The notes under the pieces are model-generated. The model had not been told where the DNA came from. It worked only from the letters and a program-made list of their open reading frames with translations, and searched no databases. Positions 35,761-43,388 of a stretch of 43,388 bases of DNA are shown one piece after another (within the stretch, counting starts at the first letter, position 1; the number at the start of each line of letters is the position of its first letter). The DNA is from Fimbriimonas sp. (GTDB taxonomy: Bacteria; Armatimonadota; Fimbriimonadia; Fimbriimonadales; Fimbriimonadaceae). The DNA lies in assembly GCA_031292555.1 (NCBI GenBank), contig JARLGV010000033.1, forward strand, positions 1 through 43,388, written 5' to 3'. A program made the translations under genes and the position numbers.

Positions 35761-36249
35761 ATGAAAGAAAGAAGATCTCGAGACCATGTTGTTCAAACAC
35801 CAACTGCTCTGACCGAAGCAAAGGTCTATGAAGAGCACTCATTGAAAGAGCTTCGAAACGCCGGATACCGCATCACGATGCCCCGAGTCCAGGTCATTCG
35901 AGCTCTCGCCGACACCTCAAAGGCCCTGAGCGCCTACGCGATTCACGAGAAGATCATCTCCGGCGGCGGAAAGATCGACGTCGTGAGCGTCTACAGAATC
36001 CTTGCCACCCTGCAAGAGGTTGGCCTTATCCACCACATCGGCGTAGTTGACGGGTATTTCCCCTGTCGGATGGCCGAATGCGCCGGAAGAAGATCCGAGG
36101 TAATGGTCTGTGAGCAGACCGGCGACGTGATGGAACTCAAGCTCCCGAGTGCGATCGTCGAGGCGATCGAGAAGCAAGCGGTCGAGCACGGTTTCGAAGC
36201 GTCGACGATCAAGGTTGAGATCACCGGAACGATCGTCAGCAAGCGCTAA
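35761..36249 (+). CDS. Fur-family metal-dependent transcriptional regulator
   Basis: The 162-residue protein has an N-terminal winged helix (about 28-90: AGYRITMPRVQVIRALADTS, then VVSVYRILATLQEVGLIHH) as in Fur/Zur/PerR. The C-terminal dimer and metal region is unusual. The common HHDH..C..CG segment is replaced by C102-RMAE-C107-AGRRSEVMVC117-EQTGDVMEL, so the second cysteine of CxxC and the HxH pair are missing. His91 and His92 remain. It probably senses a metal or redox state with a changed site. A very strong hairpin follows. Confidence 0.85.
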   Translation: MKERRSRDHVVQTPTALTEAKVYEEHSLKELRNAGYRITMPRVQVIRALADTSKALSAYAIHEKIISGGGKIDVVSVYRILATLQEVGLIHHIGVVDGYFPCRMAECAGRRSEVMVCEQTGDVMELKLPSAIVEAIEKQAVEHGFEASTIKVEITGTIVSKR

Positions 36250-36267
36250 GCACACTTCAATCAGACG

Positions 36268-36311
36268 CACAGTAAGAGCCCGGTGGGAAATCCCACCGGG
36301 CTCTTACTGTG
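36268..36311. terminator. 21-bp perfect hairpin between the Fur-family gene and htrA
   Basis: Arms of 21 bases (beginning CACAGTAAGAGCCCGG) pair without mismatch across a two-base AA turn. It sits between two converging genes and should terminate both. The U tract is short. Confidence 0.75.
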
Positions 36312-36363
36312 TATTCGATTGGCGCTTCGACCGAAAGGACGAAGCGCCGGGTGAGATGAGTCG

Positions 36364-37953
36364 CTAGAACGTAACGTCCAGTTCGGACTGGATCGTCGAG
36401 TTCTTACCGAATCGCGCGAACTTGATTCGCTTAGATTCGCCTGGCTTGACGCCGGACATGGCGGAAATCAGATCGTCCGCCGAGTTGATTTGCTTGTTGC
36501 CAAGCATTTCGATGACGTCGCCCGGTTGAAGGCCGACGCTCTCAGCAACCGAACCTGTGTTCACCTGTCCGACCACGGCGCCGTGAACGTCGCTTGGGAT
36601 CGAGAACTGCTGGCGAACGTCGTCGGTCAGGTTATTGACCGTCACTCCGAGGTGGGCCTTACCGTCCGGGTTGGCGGGCGTCGAAGGCTGCGTTCGGGCG
36701 TGAGGATTCGTGAAGCCGGGGAAGTCCTTAAAGAAGTCGGGCGCCTCATCGAGGCCCTTGGGGAACCGGAACTGGAACGGTTGGGGAGACATCTGGCCTC
36801 CCATCGGCTGCTGCTCGGCCTCAGCCTTGTGCTCTTGAAGCTTGACGTTGTACGTCTTGTGGACGCCGTTTCGAATGACCTCTACGGCAACGCTTGTGCC
36901 AGGAGCATACTCAAGCATCGCATTGCGAAGATCGAGTTGCGTGTTGATGGATGTATGACCGACGCGTACAACCACGTCGTCCTTCTTGATTCCTGCCATG
37001 CCGGCAGGCTGGTTCTCCGGAGCGTCGGCGACGAGAGCGCCACCCGTAACGTGCCGTTGCTGCTTCTGGTATTCGGTCAGGTTCTCAGGAATAAGACCGA
37101 TCTGAGATCGAACGACTTTACCGTTCTCGATGAGTTTGTCGACGATCAAGCGAACCTGGTTGCTCGGGATTGCGAAGCCAATCCCAGCGCTGGTTCCCGA
37201 CGGGCTATAGATAGCGGTATTCAAGCCAATAACCTGTCCGTCGATGTTGGTGAGCGGGCCACCGGAGTTACCCATGTTGATCGCGGTGTCGGTCTGGATC
37301 ATGTCCGGGTAGTACCGGTTCTCGATCACCGTCTTGTCGCGACCAAGTGCACTGACGTGTCCGAACGTCACCGATTGCTCCAACCCGAATGGCGCGCCGA
37401 TCGCCATCGCCATTTGCCCGGGCTTGAGCTTGCTGCTATCGGCAAAAGCGAGGGTTGGGAGGTTTTTGGCGTCGATCTTTACGATCGCGATATCGCTGTC
37501 GTGGGCCCTGGTGACCTTTCCGTCAAACTCGCGACCGTCCTTGAGGATGACTTTGACTTTCTCAAAGCCCCCCACGACGTGATCGTTTGTGACGATGTAT
37601 CCATCGGGGCGCAGAATGAACCCCGAACCTTCGCCTCCGGAAACCGGCATCCGCTCTCCGTTAGGTCCGACCTGGCGACCGCTAGTCGACTGGATGTCGA
37701 CGACGGCCGGACTCACGAACTCGGCGAGGTTTGTATAGAAGGCATCGAGGTTGCGGACTTCGGAAACGCTCTCGCGACTAGGTGCGCTGATGGTTCTTGC
37801 CTGGAACGACGGCAGGTGATTGTCCGATGCGAGCGCTTTGCTGAAAGGCATGAAGCCCTTACCGTAGATTCCGGCCATAAAAACGGCGCCGAGGACAAAT
37901 CCCGCGCCCAGCGTCACATAGACGCTTTTCGGTGTGTGTGGATTTTGATTCAT
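36364..37953 (-). CDS. htrA: HtrA/DegP-family periplasmic serine protease with two PDZ domains
   Basis: The 529-residue protein has an N-terminal membrane anchor or signal (about 9-30). The trypsin-like domain has His125 in VTNDHVVGG, Asp154 in HDSDIAIVKI and Ser230 in GNSGGPL. Two PDZ domains follow (about 275-380 and 430-525; the latter with GSVAESVGLQPGDVIEML). HtrA degrades misfolded envelope proteins and is a classic target of sigma-E-type factors. The sigma and anti-sigma genes lie directly upstream on the same strand, separated by 379 nt. AAGGAG is 14 nt before the ATG, rather far. Confidence 0.93.
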   Translation of the reverse strand: MNQNPHTPKSVYVTLGAGFVLGAVFMAGIYGKGFMPFSKALASDNHLPSFQARTISAPSRESVSEVRNLDAFYTNLAEFVSPAVVDIQSTSGRQVGPNGERMPVSGGEGSGFILRPDGYIVTNDHVVGGFEKVKVILKDGREFDGKVTRAHDSDIAIVKIDAKNLPTLAFADSSKLKPGQMAMAIGAPFGLEQSVTFGHVSALGRDKTVIENRYYPDMIQTDTAINMGNSGGPLTNIDGQVIGLNTAIYSPSGTSAGIGFAIPSNQVRLIVDKLIENGKVVRSQIGLIPENLTEYQKQQRHVTGGALVADAPENQPAGMAGIKKDDVVVRVGHTSINTQLDLRNAMLEYAPGTSVAVEVIRNGVHKTYNVKLQEHKAEAEQQPMGGQMSPQPFQFRFPKGLDEAPDFFKDFPGFTNPHARTQPSTPANPDGKAHLGVTVNNLTDDVRQQFSIPSDVHGAVVGQVNTGSVAESVGLQPGDVIEMLGNKQINSADDLISAMSGVKPGESKRIKFARFGKNSTIQSELDVTF

Positions 37954-38332
37954 CTCTGGTTTTTGATCTCCTTGTTACACTGGCCTTCCGATGAGATCCC
38001 GGCTCGCCGGTTGAAGTCACCCTCCGACTCGACGATCGCCCCGTGGGGCCCAATACCGGACTCTCGAAGTCCAATCTAAATGTGCTAACGCCGATAACCC
38101 GGGGTTCGGTTCCGAGGTCCTGTCGTCATGTACATTACTACGACTTTCCCTCAGTTTGATTCCTGGTTCTCGGCGTATCCTGAGTGCCATATCGATTGCT
38201 GTATAGATTCTAAAGGTTTCGACGACAAGCACGACGGTCAATGGGCTGAAGATCCGGCAAGATCACCGTGGATTTTCCGCTGATTCGGCACTGACATCGC
38301 CTGCCATCCCGATACGATCTGTCGAGCCGTCG
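37954..38332. other. 379-nt intergenic region without a convincing gene
   Basis: It lies between htrA and the anti-sigma gene. A minus-strand frame of 74 codons (38017-38241) is open, but its product is charged, lacks a clear start signal and resembles no family, so I do not call it. The region should contain the htrA promoter. No clear -10/-35 pair or terminator is seen. Confidence 0.5.
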
Positions 38333-38791
38333 CTATCTCGGGCCGAAATTCGCCACGGAGATGACGGGGCCAACCGGTTCGGTGGTCAAGACCTCGGCAT
38401 TCGCATTGCTTGCCACTCCGAGCCCAGATTGACCGCCATTGCTATTCGGCGCGTTCAAATGCCGGCCGATTCCGTAATTGACGATCAGCAACGTTGCGAG
38501 CATCGAGCACGCAGTAACGCTGGCAAACATTAGGGCGGACACTCGGAGGGTCTTGCGAGGCTCTTCGTGGCGAAGCTTCATCATGTTCGCCGTCAGCCGA
38601 TCGGATAAACCCTCTGGCGGCTCCGGGCAAGAGACTCCGCCGAGAAGGCATTTGAGCGCCCGAAGGCTGTCCGCTTCGGCTCGGCAGTCTCTGCACGTCG
38701 AAATGTGTGCTCGAATTTGAAGTAGCTCGTCCCCGCCGAGTTCGCGATCGAGATACGCCGATAGGCGATTCTGAACGGATTTACAGTTCAT
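38333..38791 (-). CDS. Zinc-finger anti-sigma factor (ZAS family)
   Basis: The 152-residue protein has the ZAS domain at the N-terminus with His29-x3-Cys33-x2-Cys36 (HISTCRDC) and Cys3, a zinc site that holds ECF sigma factors. A single membrane helix follows (about 85-107) and then a Ser/Asn-rich outer tail. Its start overlaps the sigma gene end by 11 nt, so translation is coupled. It should bind the sigma factor at 38781 at the membrane until an envelope signal releases it. Confidence 0.85.
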   Translation of the reverse strand: MNCKSVQNRLSAYLDRELGGDELLQIRAHISTCRDCRAEADSLRALKCLLGGVSCPEPPEGLSDRLTANMMKLRHEEPRKTLRVSALMFASVTACSMLATLLIVNYGIGRHLNAPNSNGGQSGLGVASNANAEVLTTEPVGPVISVANFGPR

Positions 38792-39377
38792 CGCAGAAAC
38801 TCCGATAGGTTTGGGGTGCGTGTTTGAGAAGGTGGCGCCGAATCTGCTTTCTGCCTCGGTGAATACGGGAACGGACTGTGCCTACCGAGGTTTTCATGAT
38901 TTCTGCGACCTCTTCATATGCTAGTCCTTCTACGTCCGCAAGCAGCACCGCTGTTCGGAACTCGGGTGTCATCGATAATAATGCCTTCTGAACCGGCTCG
39001 TCAAGGGCGTTGACCAGCATCTGTCGGTCGGGAGAGGCATCTAGGTCGGGCAAGTCCCAGGTCGTCGAGCCGTCGTTGCCGGCTGCCTCCAAGCTGGTCG
39101 TCCGCAACCGGCCCCGTCGACGAATCGAGTCGATGTGGGCGTTTGTCATGATTCGATAGAGCCAACTGGTAAAAGGAAGCGACTCATCGTACCGATGGAA
39201 GAAGCGGTAGGCGCGAACGAACGATTCCTGGACGAGATCCTCCGCCTCGGCCGCGTTGCCGGTAAGGCGGTATGCCAAACCGTAGGCCGGTTTGTAGGAG
39301 TCTCGTATTAACCCTTCAAACAGTTCCAATCGGTCGCCGACCGTCGTGGTTCTTTCTTGTACGCCGGAGAAGATCAT
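38781..39377 (-). CDS. ECF sigma factor (RpoE-like)
   Basis: I start at ATG 39377 (198 residues), the normal ECF length; the open frame extends further but runs into the opposite gene's territory. Region 2 is AEDLVQESFVRAYRFFHRYD with FTSWLYRIMTNAHIDSIRRR. Region 4 is MTPEFRTAVLLADVEGLAYE with VGTVRSRIHRGRKQI. It directs RNA polymerase to a small set of promoters. Its gene overlaps that of its anti-sigma factor and precedes htrA. Confidence 0.92.
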   Translation of the reverse strand: MIFSGVQERTTTVGDRLELFEGLIRDSYKPAYGLAYRLTGNAAEAEDLVQESFVRAYRFFHRYDESLPFTSWLYRIMTNAHIDSIRRRGRLRTTSLEAAGNDGSTTWDLPDLDASPDRQMLVNALDEPVQKALLSMTPEFRTAVLLADVEGLAYEEVAEIMKTSVGTVRSRIHRGRKQIRRHLLKHAPQTYRSFCDEL

Positions 39378-39405
39378 TGTTGGAAACCTGGACTCACCGA
39401 ATATG

Positions 39406-39433
39406 TACGGTTGACTTCCATTGCCGCGTTCCC
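39406..39433 (-). promoter_or_regulatory. Possible ECF-type promoter before the sigma gene
   Basis: On the minus strand GGGAAC (39433-39428) and CGTA (39409-39406) are 18 nt apart, resembling the GGAAC...CGTN form used by ECF sigma factors for self-activation. The match is short and could be chance. Confidence 0.25.
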
Positions 39434-39550
39434 GTCTGCCGACTATATTGTTGACAGACAGTCCATGAGTGGCGCAGATTGGCAATTTCTGACGCATTTC
39501 GGTTCGCCAATCCAAAAGCAAGCAGATTTTTGGACAATTGCCGGCTGACC

Positions 39551-40387
39551 ATGCGATATCTGGCTGGGTATTGTGGGCGACTTCCGTCGGCATTAAGGTA
39601 TTACCGTTGCGTGAGCCTCCAGCGAGGACGGATAGTGTCGGTCGGAGATCGAGTCCGGCAGGGTTCGATGCAGCCGATCTACGCCGAGATCGAACTGCCG
39701 GGGGGAGTGCGCACATCGACAATCTGTAAGTTTCCCACCCGTTCCAATCGAGCACCGATCGAGCAAGTCATCAACGAGTGGATCGTCACTGTGGCTGGAC
39801 GGCTGGTGGGACTTCAAGTTCCTCCCTGCTACATCGTGGAGGCATCGCCCCACGTAATGCTTCACCTAGTCGAACGCCACGGCGTAACGCTTGCATGTAA
39901 CTTCGGGTTCGCAGCCGAGGTTTGCCCAATCGACGCATTGATCTACCCGAGTTCGCTGGATGCGATGGATCCGGAAGACCTGACTCGGCTGTTCTGTTTC
40001 GACATGCTGTTTCTCAACGCGGACCGCACGCCGAACAATCCAAATTGCGGCCAGTCCAATCGTCGTTTGTTTGCTTACGATTTTGGAAGCGCTCTCGTGT
40101 CGCCGGGCACTGCTCCGAATAGCTTTGAACGACTCTTCTTCGGGCCGAACATGGCAGATCGAGCCGCGGCTCACCTGTGCAGAAGTCACGTCGGACCTTC
40201 CGTCATGGCGCAAAAAGTGCTTCAGGACTTGATCGCGGCGGTAAGTAAGAACCGATGGTACGCTGGCATGAACTTGAAGTTTCTGCCCGTGGCCCTACAG
40301 GAGCAAATGAGGCTTGCGGTGCAATACTTCGACTACGTCGTTCAGGAGCGCGACCTGCTCTGCCGCCAAATCGTTAGTACGTTGTAA
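39551..40387 (+). CDS. HipA-like Ser/Thr kinase
   Basis: I start at ATG 39551 (278 residues), because earlier codons of the frame overlap the sigma-gene leader. The protein aligns by eye with HipA-like kinases. Lys60 (TICKF) and Glu76 (INEW) are the likely ATP pair. The catalytic segment FLNADRTPNNPN has Asp158 and Asn162/163 (HipA form N-x-D-R/x-H-x-x-N). The magnesium segment YDFGSAL has Asp177. All expected catalytic residues appear present. In this family the kinase is typically followed by a DUF3037 gene, as here after 15 nt. Phosphorylation target unknown. Contexts of this pair include candidate toxin-antitoxin or signalling units. Confidence 0.82.
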   Translation: MRYLAGYCGRLPSALRYYRCVSLQRGRIVSVGDRVRQGSMQPIYAEIELPGGVRTSTICKFPTRSNRAPIEQVINEWIVTVAGRLVGLQVPPCYIVEASPHVMLHLVERHGVTLACNFGFAAEVCPIDALIYPSSLDAMDPEDLTRLFCFDMLFLNADRTPNNPNCGQSNRRLFAYDFGSALVSPGTAPNSFERLFFGPNMADRAAAHLCRSHVGPSVMAQKVLQDLIAAVSKNRWYAGMNLKFLPVALQEQMRLAVQYFDYVVQERDLLCRQIVSTL

Positions 40388-40402
40388 AGAGATGAGACAA
40401 GG

Positions 40403-42202
40403 ATGAGCGTCTTCGTTTTCTATGCGGTTCGATTCAGCCCTGCTCCAGAACTTGGAGAGTGGCTGAACGTGGCCGTCGTAGGCGAGGGCATCACCGAGCG
40501 TAGGGCTGGTCTGATCGTCACGCAATCTCTGGATCGAGTTGCTTCAGCCTTCGGCGAGGAAGCGGTGGAACGCGTAAACGCGATCTGCCGCGACTTGGAA
40601 GACCGGGTCGTGGCCATCACGTTGGCTCACAAACGGGGCGAGGAAGCACCGACAATTCCATCGTCGGTGAAGGACATGGCTCTTTCAGTCGTCTTCTCCG
40701 AACAGATTGTCGTGTTCGAGGGTGCCTTCGAGGAAGCACTGAGGAATATCGCAAAGAAGTATCTTCCGCCTCAGCAAGAACCCCTCACGGAGGCAAACAG
40801 GATTCAGCAAGCAGCGGGTAACCGACCGGTTTCAGTCGGCGACGCCGACAAAGATTTCTTTAGGATTGCCGGCTCCCTACAGGAGAAGCTGACAAACCTG
40901 TCTCGAATCACGGTTCCTCCCGTTGTCGCGAAGTCAATCGAGCAAGGCAAGAAGGCACTTGAGGGAATAGTCCAACCTCCTACGACGCCGACCGTATTGG
41001 TTGTCGGCCGTATCGGGCATCTCACGTCGGCCCTCATTCCGGAACTTCTGGACGGTGGGCATCATGTACGCCATTTCGATCCCTACACCGAGCGAGTTAT
41101 GCCCGGAGAGGACATCAGCGGGACGCGATCTACGAGAACATCGATTGCCGAGGTCGCGGCTCAAGCGGGAGTGACCGCCCTAACTGCATCGAAAGTCCTG
41201 CTCGGCGAACTTGGCGGCTCCAGGGTTTCCGATTCAACAATCGAACGGATCAAGGATGCGGCACGTCGACTGGGCTACAGCACCGGTTTGAAGGACGCGG
41301 ATCATGATGTGGCGTCAATGCTAAATGGGGTCGACGTCGTTGTCTGCGTCGCGGATTCTGCCCCGGATATTGCCGACGCTCAGGGCCACCCGGCGCGTCT
41401 CAAACGATTTGCCGAGGAAGCGAAGTCACATGGAGTCCGGCGGTTTGTAATCGCGAGTTCGTGTCATGTGTATGGTAAAGGCTCTGACACGTTCCACGAG
41501 GAATCGCCCCTTAACCCGGCCACTTCAACCGGGAAGCGCAGCGCCGAGATAGAGCATCACCTGAACAGCCTATCAGACGATTCGTTCGCCGTCACTGTGC
41601 TGCGATTCGGAGACTTATATGGCTATCGAAATGAGAGCACTTGGTTCGGCGACCTTGAGCAGATGTCGACGACGAACCCGCACGATATGTCGGTGAACGT
41701 GCTCGCCGCCAAGGCTGCTCTTGAAGGAAAGCTCTCGGTCGTCGATTCACAGCGAAGGCCGTTCGTGCATGTCGACGACGCGGTGGGTTCGATACTGGCG
41801 GTGCTCTCCCGATCGGCTGACGAGACAAATGGTCAAATCTACAATGTTGGATCGGATGACCAAATTCGCACAATCGGCGAGGTTGCCCAACTGATTCGCC
41901 AGTTCATGCCCGAAGCAGGAATTCACGTAGTAGAGGGGGACATCGAAGACGCTCCCTGTGAGGTTAGCTTTGAGAAAGTGAGCGTTCAGTTGGGTTATGT
42001 ACCTCAGAAATCTCTCGAAGACGGAATTGCTCAGGTCCTGGCCGTTTTGGAAGCAACTGGTTTGGCGGAACGTCTGCGCGCCGAGCTGCAAGTGAGTCCG
42101 GGCACGCGCATCGGCATCGATTTTCAGACATTGGAGTCGGTTACGGTCGAGTCGGAGCCCCCGACGAGCAAGGTTCGACGGGATGTGAAGCAAGAGGATT
42201 GA
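40403..42202 (+). CDS. DUF3037 fused to an NAD-binding extended-SDR fold with an inserted LacI-type HTH
   Basis: The protein is 599 residues. Residues 1-115 match DUF3037 (FYAVRFSPAPELGEWLNVAV). After a linker, 197-226 begin a Rossmann fold with G202-x-x-G205 and an acidic end of beta-2 (Asp226), suggesting NAD. Residues 246-292 are a complete LacI-family DNA-binding headpiece. IAEVAAQAGVTALTASKVL (248-266) matches the PROSITE LacI HTH pattern, and the hinge-side helix is VSDSTIERIKDAARRLGY. The epimerase fold then resumes (NGVDVVVCVADSA, FVIASSCHVYG at 348-358, FVHVDDAVGS, IYNVGSD). The SDR catalytic YxxxK is T374-x3-K378, so the tyrosine is absent and catalysis is unlikely. Probably a sensor-regulator partner of the kinase. 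Confidence 0.85.
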   Translation: MSVFVFYAVRFSPAPELGEWLNVAVVGEGITERRAGLIVTQSLDRVASAFGEEAVERVNAICRDLEDRVVAITLAHKRGEEAPTIPSSVKDMALSVVFSEQIVVFEGAFEEALRNIAKKYLPPQQEPLTEANRIQQAAGNRPVSVGDADKDFFRIAGSLQEKLTNLSRITVPPVVAKSIEQGKKALEGIVQPPTTPTVLVVGRIGHLTSALIPELLDGGHHVRHFDPYTERVMPGEDISGTRSTRTSIAEVAAQAGVTALTASKVLLGELGGSRVSDSTIERIKDAARRLGYSTGLKDADHDVASMLNGVDVVVCVADSAPDIADAQGHPARLKRFAEEAKSHGVRRFVIASSCHVYGKGSDTFHEESPLNPATSTGKRSAEIEHHLNSLSDDSFAVTVLRFGDLYGYRNESTWFGDLEQMSTTNPHDMSVNVLAAKAALEGKLSVVDSQRRPFVHVDDAVGSILAVLSRSADETNGQIYNVGSDDQIRTIGEVAQLIRQFMPEAGIHVVEGDIEDAPCEVSFEKVSVQLGYVPQKSLEDGIAQVLAVLEATGLAERLRAELQVSPGTRIGIDFQTLESVTVESEPPTSKVRRDVKQED

Positions 42203-42259: not shown

Positions 42260-43388
42260 ATGCAAGCGTTGGTACGCCACCTCCTATCGGTCCTCCTCCT
42301 CGTGGTTGCGGCTGCGGCTTTCGGTCGCCAAGATGGCCTTCAAATGGTTCGCGGCAAAGAGGTCGTCACCGTGCACGGCGTCTTCAACGCACACTACATT
42401 GGCAAGCGGACCCGGGAAGGCAAGGAATCGAGTCAAGTCGTCGTTTCGCTTACGCGTTCGGAATTGCGCGGTTACGATCTTTCGGATCCGAAGGATGCCG
42501 GCAATTGGTGGCTTTTGAAGGGAGCTCAGAACAACCAGGGCACGTTGAGCCCCTATCCCAAAGCACTGCCAAACCACCCTGCAAAGGTCTCGACAACGAA
42601 GACGGTGGATGTTTACACCCTTGACGTCGACCCTCAAGCCCTTGGGCTGGTTGACGGCGATAGCCTGCTTGTTTTCATCGCGGCACGGCGCAGCGGAGCG
42701 CTTGATAACGAGGCTGTAGTTCTCAACGAAATGGGACTGAATATGGTGGTGACCCGGCCGGCAGAGACCGACTCGATCACCGTCGGAGGTCTATCTGTCG
42801 CGCCGAACGCCCAGCTAGAGAACGGCTCGACTGCTTTCGTTGTTCATGCCACTCTTACCTACGATCAGCCGGACGTGCGTGCCCAACTTGGATGGGCAAG
42901 GCTTCACTTTATCTCGACCAACGTTCTTTCCACTCAAACCGAAGACGAGAACGCTTACTTCTCGGGGATGCTTCTGGCGGAGAAGATCAAGCAGCTTGAG
43001 CAACTTCTGCCCAGTTTTCCGTTGTCCCCGTTCGTTCGGATGGACACGAGCGAGTCGTTTCACAACCAGTCCGCCAATTTCGGGGTGATAGGCAAGGTTC
43101 GATTGCGTGGTACTCGTTTTGGAATGGGCGACACGTTCGACTCGGTGAAGGACGCGATGCTGTACTTCGTGCCGATCCAGTTTCAGGATCGATATCACCG
43201 GACCGGCTATATCGCGCCGTGGGATACTCGGGCAAACATCCTCGTCAGTTCAGCCAATATCCTGTGGGAGCCAATCTTCCTCGGTTCTTCGAAGGATGTG
43301 CCGGACATCAACTCGGACTACTCCCTTCACTTAGGCGGGAACTTGTGGTACTTCCCCGACCGCGGATCGGCCCCGGGCGTGGAGACGA
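42260..43388 (+). CDS. Secreted protein of unknown function, C-terminally cut by the window edge
   Basis: The frame runs open from ATG 42260 to the end, 376 codons without a stop. An in-frame TAG at 42248-42250 fixes this as the first usable ATG. Residues 1-22 form a signal peptide (LLSVLLLVVAAAAFG). The mature part is beta-rich and has no motif I recognise (for example VVTVHGVFNAHYIGK, then ATLTYDQPDVRAQLGW and NLWYFPDRG). It begins 57 nt after the chimera gene and may share its transcript. Confidence 0.65.
   Translation, partial: MQALVRHLLSVLLLVVAAAAFGRQDGLQMVRGKEVVTVHGVFNAHYIGKRTREGKESSQVVVSLTRSELRGYDLSDPKDAGNWWLLKGAQNNQGTLSPYPKALPNHPAKVSTTKTVDVYTLDVDPQALGLVDGDSLLVFIAARRSGALDNEAVVLNEMGLNMVVTRPAETDSITVGGLSVAPNAQLENGSTAFVVHATLTYDQPDVRAQLGWARLHFISTNVLSTQTEDENAYFSGMLLAEKIKQLEQLLPSFPLSPFVRMDTSESFHNQSANFGVIGKVRLRGTRFGMGDTFDSVKDAMLYFVPIQFQDRYHRTGYIAPWDTRANILVSSANILWEPIFLGSSKDVPDINSDYSLHLGGNLWYFPDRGSAPGVET

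Follow-up and report, generated by a model that had tools for sequence, protein, structure and literature searches.

The question raised by the gene pair at 39551-42202 of the window (the whole stretch of DNA analysed, 43,388 nucleotides of Fimbriimonas sp., which is an entire contig of a 6.46-Mb genome in 140 contigs) is whether a HipA-like kinase, encoded next to an unusually long partner protein, belongs to a new kind of system or to a known one in modified form. An earlier note on this DNA had proposed a possible new kinase signalling or toxin-antitoxin module. Toxin-antitoxin-like logic is indeed the best reading, since the same gene pair behaves in that way experimentally elsewhere, but the pair is better described as a variant of HipAD/PDC-M66 than as a new kind of module. 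More precisely, we consider it fairly probable that the locus is a HipAD-type (i.e. PADLOC PDC-M66-like) toxin-antitoxin or defence cassette in which the C-terminal module of the antitoxin has been swapped, the resulting protein being likely autoregulatory and perhaps ligand-responsive.

The kinase gene

The first gene of the pair (39551..40387, forward strand) encodes a HipA_2-type kinase, the putative toxin. The Pfam HipA_2 profile matches it above the Pfam cut-off (E = 2.1e-11); the PADLOC profile PDC-M66A matches as well (E 8.8e-10), and profile-profile comparison aligns the protein with HipAD-type kinases (98.9%, E 1.9e-17). A sequence search of the PDB with the kinase gave no match and the comparison was therefore made at the level of the fold. 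The AlphaFold model (pLDDT 80.9, pTM 0.82) has the HipA-like kinase CtkA as its top PDB match in Foldseek, a fold-level likeness with a TM of about 0.5.

There are two candidate start codons, ATG 39551 and GTG 39611. The identity of the kinase to its closest relative, found in the same-genus genome G244, begins around residue 21, i.e. near 39611, which makes the GTG the likelier start. A ten-sequence alignment indicates that the family conserves Asp138 and Asp157, and almost invariantly Asn145, in GTG-start numbering; counted from the ATG, as was done earlier, these are Asp158, Asp177 and Asn165. Lys60, Glu76, Asp158 and Asp177 lie where the earlier note had put them, but the catalytic-loop asparagine had been misplaced at 162/163: the family-conserved residue is Asn165, the second N of NPNC. 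Together with the G244 kinase, the kinase of the window forms a deep branch of its own. The described arrangement of two same-strand open reading frames with a 15-nt gap is correct, the kinase gene ending at 40387 and that of the partner occupying 40403-42202.

A divergent DUF3037 domain in the partner

The partner (40403..42202, forward strand) is a putative antitoxin/regulator of 599 aa, composed of a DUF3037-like domain, a linker and an SDR fold with an embedded LacI-type helix-turn-helix (HTH). The assignment of the first ~115 residues to DUF3037 stands by tailored profiles, whereas the general ones are silent: Pfam DUF3037 (PF11236) has no match in the partner, nor in a genome-wide profile search, and PADLOC PDC-M66B does not match the partner even at E 10. 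A phylum profile built from 14 Armatimonadota DUF3037 N-termini gives 29.7 bits for partner residues 3-122 and 23.1 bits for the partner from G244, where the best decoy among 1,618 reversed ORFs reaches 7.8 bits, and an alignment containing HipD matches the N-terminus of the partner in hhalign (95%, E 2.7e-8). On the strength of the profile score, the decoys and the HMM-HMM match taken together, we conclude that the sequence of the partner carries a real but divergent DUF3037 domain, covering residues about 1-124 (40403..40774, forward strand).

A profile of full-length DUF3037 proteins (43 sequences) aligns only to partner residues 4-99, from which it follows that the canonical C-terminal half of DUF3037 partners, residues about 135-275 in HipD/PDC-M66B, is missing from the window protein. 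What follows the domain is a helical linker of residues about 125-191 (40775..40975, forward strand), with helices at 145-166 and 173-190 in the AlphaFold2 (AF2) model; it is partly common to the unfused partner of G244, the blast homology with which reaches residue ~174. The AF2 model is not interpretable in its DUF3037 part, where the pLDDT is mostly below 60, and thus says nothing on kinase binding.

An SDR fold with an inserted helix-turn-helix

The remainder of the partner is an SDR/epimerase-fold domain of residues about 196-553 (40988..42061, forward strand), which holds within it a LacI-type HTH of residues about 246-293 (41138..41281, forward strand). The proposed profile check found both Epimerase (E = 5.2e-17) and LacI (E = 8.7e-9, above cut-off) in this protein, leaving DUF3037 as the Pfam family that failed to match. 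The Rossmann fold and the LacI domain announced in the earlier note are thus both present, but the HTH sits inside the Rossmann fold and is not a separate module. In the AF2 model, in which the pLDDT is mostly 80-96 for the SDR part and 63-76 for the three HTH helices, these helices (248-255, 259-266 and 277-289) come after beta-2 and before the following SDR helix, i.e. in the place of the beta-3 stretch that ends in DFRQ in other SDRs. It is this SDR helix that follows the HTH, and no LacI-type hinge helix is evident there. Foldseek matches the SDR model to sugar-nucleotide SDRs, for instance Cj1427 (6vo6, E 6e-17), and among the strong SDR hits in 201 genomes of the phylum there was no other with a LacI insertion. 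An HTH inserted in a catalytically dead Rossmann enzyme would be an unusual design for a regulator.

That the domain is dead is predicted from an alignment with 19 SDRs of the phylum. The partner has GRIGHLT as compared to the NAD motif GGAGYVG of intact SDRs, and TGKRS as compared to the catalytic YARSK, the tyrosine being replaced by Thr376 and the lysine by Ser380. The first two glycines of the NAD motif and the Asp after beta-2 are kept, but the third glycine of the motif is not, nor are the beta-3 region and the Tyr/Lys pair. In addition, the GDPAC loop is shortened and there is a 13-aa insert near residue 409. The features of an active SDR (the GxxGxxG NAD motif and the catalytic YxxxK) are therefore absent, and the term 'NAD-type', as used for this domain before, describes no more than the fold.

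The related SDR family, with proteins of ~540 aa and an N-terminal membrane region, occurs in many Armatimonadota genomes, and the genome of the window also holds an intact 564-aa paralog (C23:27409). A LacI regulator from that genome shares 49% identity with the HTH over a stretch of 49 aa. Both parts could, judging from these similarities, derive from the host's own gene stock. By sequence relationship, the canonical half of the partner is replaced by a domain related to the SDR epimerase of polysaccharide biosynthesis of the phylum.

Distribution of the gene pair and of the fusion

A survey of genomes for the same arrangement had been suggested, and its outcome is twofold: the HipA_2-DUF3037 pair recurs, but in the collections covered the fused partner does not. 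DUF3037 passes in 16 of 291 genomes of the phylum, with partner ORFs of mostly about 265-325 aa and a few shorter ones. The IMG/VR collection has 59 DUF3037 loci, a kinase-like ORF adjoining in 58 of them; the protein measures 262-290 aa in 55 loci, is short in two (128 and 150 aa) and runs off the contig in the other two. Full-length DUF3037 partners (55 viral ones and about a dozen from the phylum) are thus otherwise about 260-325 aa long, against 599 in the window. Within the phylum genomes, a set of 85k genomes and IMG/VR, the fusion of DUF3037 with SDR/LacI was seen in the window genome alone. Unannotated DUF3037 matches were also noted in a Klebsiella phage record (OK490416) and, weakly, in the plasmid collection under NZ_CP119140.1 (Neisseria gonorrhoeae, 2.17-Mb), an entry whose size suggests that a chromosome was listed there as a plasmid.

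Among the 85k genomes, G244 alone held a close relative of the DUF3037-like domain of the window, and none was present in IMG/VR or the plasmid collection. The G244 kinase (contig CAILEM010000131) is 61% identical to that of the window, and its partner is an unfused protein of 265 aa of which the N-terminus is 65% identical and which has neither SDR nor HTH; no SDR remnants were found in this partner or in the DNA downstream of it. Directly upstream of the kinase, G244 has a DUF6717 gene (E 4.1e-14; L016:11123-12307) for which there is no equivalent in the window.

Upstream region, flanking genes and alternative readings

The presumed promoter lies in the intergenic region upstream of the kinase (39387..39610). 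It contains a promoter-like TTGCCG-17-TATATT at 39421-39449, which is not above chance, and a 7-nt inverted repeat at 39511-39534, of a kind that occurs in 12% of shuffles. As no significant operator-like palindrome was found in this region, binding of the partner to its own promoter is proposed here conditionally.

The lack of a recognizable operator bears on the alternative in which the locus is a toxin-antitoxin pair as well, but one in which DUF3037 works alone, with the SDR/HTH half as neutral passenger or structural tail. It would agree with this that the partner of G244, if functional, does its work without SDR or HTH, that the fusion occurs in one genome, and that the ligand motifs of the SDR are degraded. 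However, the about 410 codons concerned have stayed open and can be aligned with SDRs without a frameshift, at an even GC3, and the LacI core pattern is preserved in the HTH, which also passes the Pfam cut-off. Moreover, C-terminal regulatory or DNA-binding parts are found in other DUF3037 proteins too (PMC12548924, PMC13092281). We therefore hold a passenger to be unlikely, although it is the strongest competitor of the swapped, probably autoregulatory antitoxin.

On the left, the module is flanked by a gene for an ECF sigma factor (38781..39386, reverse strand; Sigma70_r2/r4) and one for a zf-HC2 anti-sigma (38333-38791), and on the right by an uncharacterised gene (42260..43388, forward strand) that has no Pfam match, has a counterpart of 55% identity in the same-genus genome G214 and runs off the contig. 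The right end of the contig (43248-43388) overlaps another contig of the same genome, C84, by 141 bases, and the gene accordingly continues there. The left side as a whole (35761-39386) has the appearance of a stress-gene neighbourhood, with a Fur-like regulator and an HtrA/DegP-like protease, both recognized by eye, besides the anti-sigma and the sigma factor; the block is syntenic in G214, without the module. In that genome about 190 bp separate the sigma-factor gene from its neighbour, the right-flank gene, and in G244 the module is located at another site, beside a block that lies at 15-21 kb in the window. The cassette is accessory by this comparison and its neighbours are probably incidental. 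Neither a mobile-element signature was identified at the module nor were further defence genes recognized next to it.

The flanks are of consequence for a reading in which the pair is not a toxin but a dedicated signalling pair, the kinase phosphorylating a host protein in the control of envelope stress or exopolysaccharide and the SDR domain reading the NDP-sugar status. The sigma/anti-sigma pair beside an HtrA-like gene would fit such a role, as would the SDR being closest to a polysaccharide epimerase family of the phylum; nevertheless, given that the flanks occur without the module in G214, that the module of G244 is situated elsewhere, and that the tested members of the gene pair are toxic or defensive, we regard it as quite improbable. 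Most improbable of all is an assembly or gene-fusion artefact, i.e. a metagenome contig in which an unrelated SDR gene was joined to a HipAD partner. In its favour, the fusion comes from a single genome in 140 contigs and no second copy of it was found. Against it, the reading frame is maintained at every junction (from linker to SDR, from SDR into the HTH and out again), over which GC and GC3 stay even, and the SDR, whose active site is lost, does not exceed 39% identity to any sequence searched and hence is not a copy of an intact gene of the window genome.

Proposed mode of action

Under the favoured reading of a HipAD-type cassette with a swapped antitoxin module, the roles of the kinase as toxin, of DUF3037 as neutraliser and of the pair in defence would be as in its relatives. 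Residues 1-124 of the partner would hold the kinase in check. HipB binds and represses the hipBA promoter, and by the same logic the HTH of the partner may bind and repress the promoter of its own operon, a putative autorepression. The dead SDR might either provide the HTH with a dimerising scaffold or sense a nucleotide or NDP-sugar. A trigger, either phage infection or an altered metabolite state, would then disturb the partner, upon which the freed kinase would cause growth arrest. The composition of the fused half suggests that the antidote may have gained promoter control of its own, perhaps along with a sensor for metabolites.

That the dead SDR senses a ligand or phage is possible, but is the weakest step of this mechanism, and the ligand-responsive reading is weakened by the loss of the active-site residues and of part of the NAD motif. 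Its specific form, in which the antitoxin senses a metabolite because the dead epimerase still binds an NDP-sugar or dinucleotide and thereby moves the built-in HTH, is in our view rather doubtful. If true, a single protein would link metabolite state, promoter control and release of the kinase.

Comparison with known systems

Classical HipBA resembles the locus in the HipA-like kinase fold and in a partner that possibly combines neutralisation with promoter binding, but the window has a DUF3037 partner downstream and no HipB-type HTH gene. Membership of this class was rejected, HipA_C scoring the kinase below cut-off (E = 0.085) and there being no match to a HipA N-terminal domain or a HipB-type HTH. 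LacI-family regulators share the core pattern of the HTH, yet have it at the N-terminus, followed by a hinge helix and a periplasmic-binding-protein-like sensor, whereas the HTH of the window is internal and without an evident hinge or sensor. The Armatimonadota polysaccharide SDR epimerase C23:27409 has the same fold and is 39% identical in the second half of the SDR, but keeps GGAGYVG, YARSK and the N-terminal membrane region, all of which the window domain has lost while gaining the HTH.

The pairing of a HipA-like kinase with DUF3037 had been called functionally undescribed, a statement that is outdated, as the pair has been tested in two studies (PMC12548924, PMC13092281). In Retron-Sda1, deletion of the kinase abolishes defence against Bas51, deletion of the DUF3037 gene is toxic, and the C-terminus of the DUF3037 protein resembles a retron DNA-binding protein (PMC12548924). 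The window pair is alike in combining a kinase with a DUF3037 protein of which the C-terminus resembles a DNA-binding protein, and differs in that this part is of the SDR/LacI and not of the retron type, and in that no retron reverse transcriptase came to notice around the module. DS-6, renamed HipAD, has a partner consisting of DUF3037 and DUF1829 with AlphaFold3-predicted contacts to both kinase and DNA, and requires one kinase residue for defence (PMC13092281); HipAD itself, i.e. a HipA kinase with HipD (DUF3037), is attributed in that study to Brenes and Laub 2025. The description of the system is recent, and the literature consulted does not settle by what means the partner senses phage. 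Phage PhiR5_1 (PV340545) carries an annotated HipA toxin/HipD antitoxin pair with the kinase gene first (L068:2246-3819), in an immunity region of lambda-like type that has cI on one side of the pair and kil-gam-bet on the other.

With HipAD/DS-6 the window has in common a HipA_2 kinase gene followed directly, on the same strand, by a DUF3037 gene, with a homologous kinase and, as detected by tailored profiles only, a DUF3037 domain; but both kinase and DUF3037 are very divergent, and the partner of 599 aa, as opposed to about 275 aa, has SDR and LacI HTH in place of the C-terminal half. In terms of PADLOC PDC-M66, the kinase matches PDC-M66A while the partner has no match to PDC-M66B, a profile that covers HipD and the DUF3037 proteins of the phylum over nearly their whole length. 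Plain PDC-M66 membership was rejected on account of the absent canonical C-terminal half, and the locus is classified as a variant instead. The combinations of DUF3037 with DUF1829, with a retron DNA-binding part and with SDR/LacI, taken together, suggest proteins in which the part facing the kinase, DUF3037, stays constant while the regulatory part at the C-terminus can be exchanged. The HipA_2 + DUF3037 module type is already known and recently tested, and what is unusual here is the exchanged C-terminal half.
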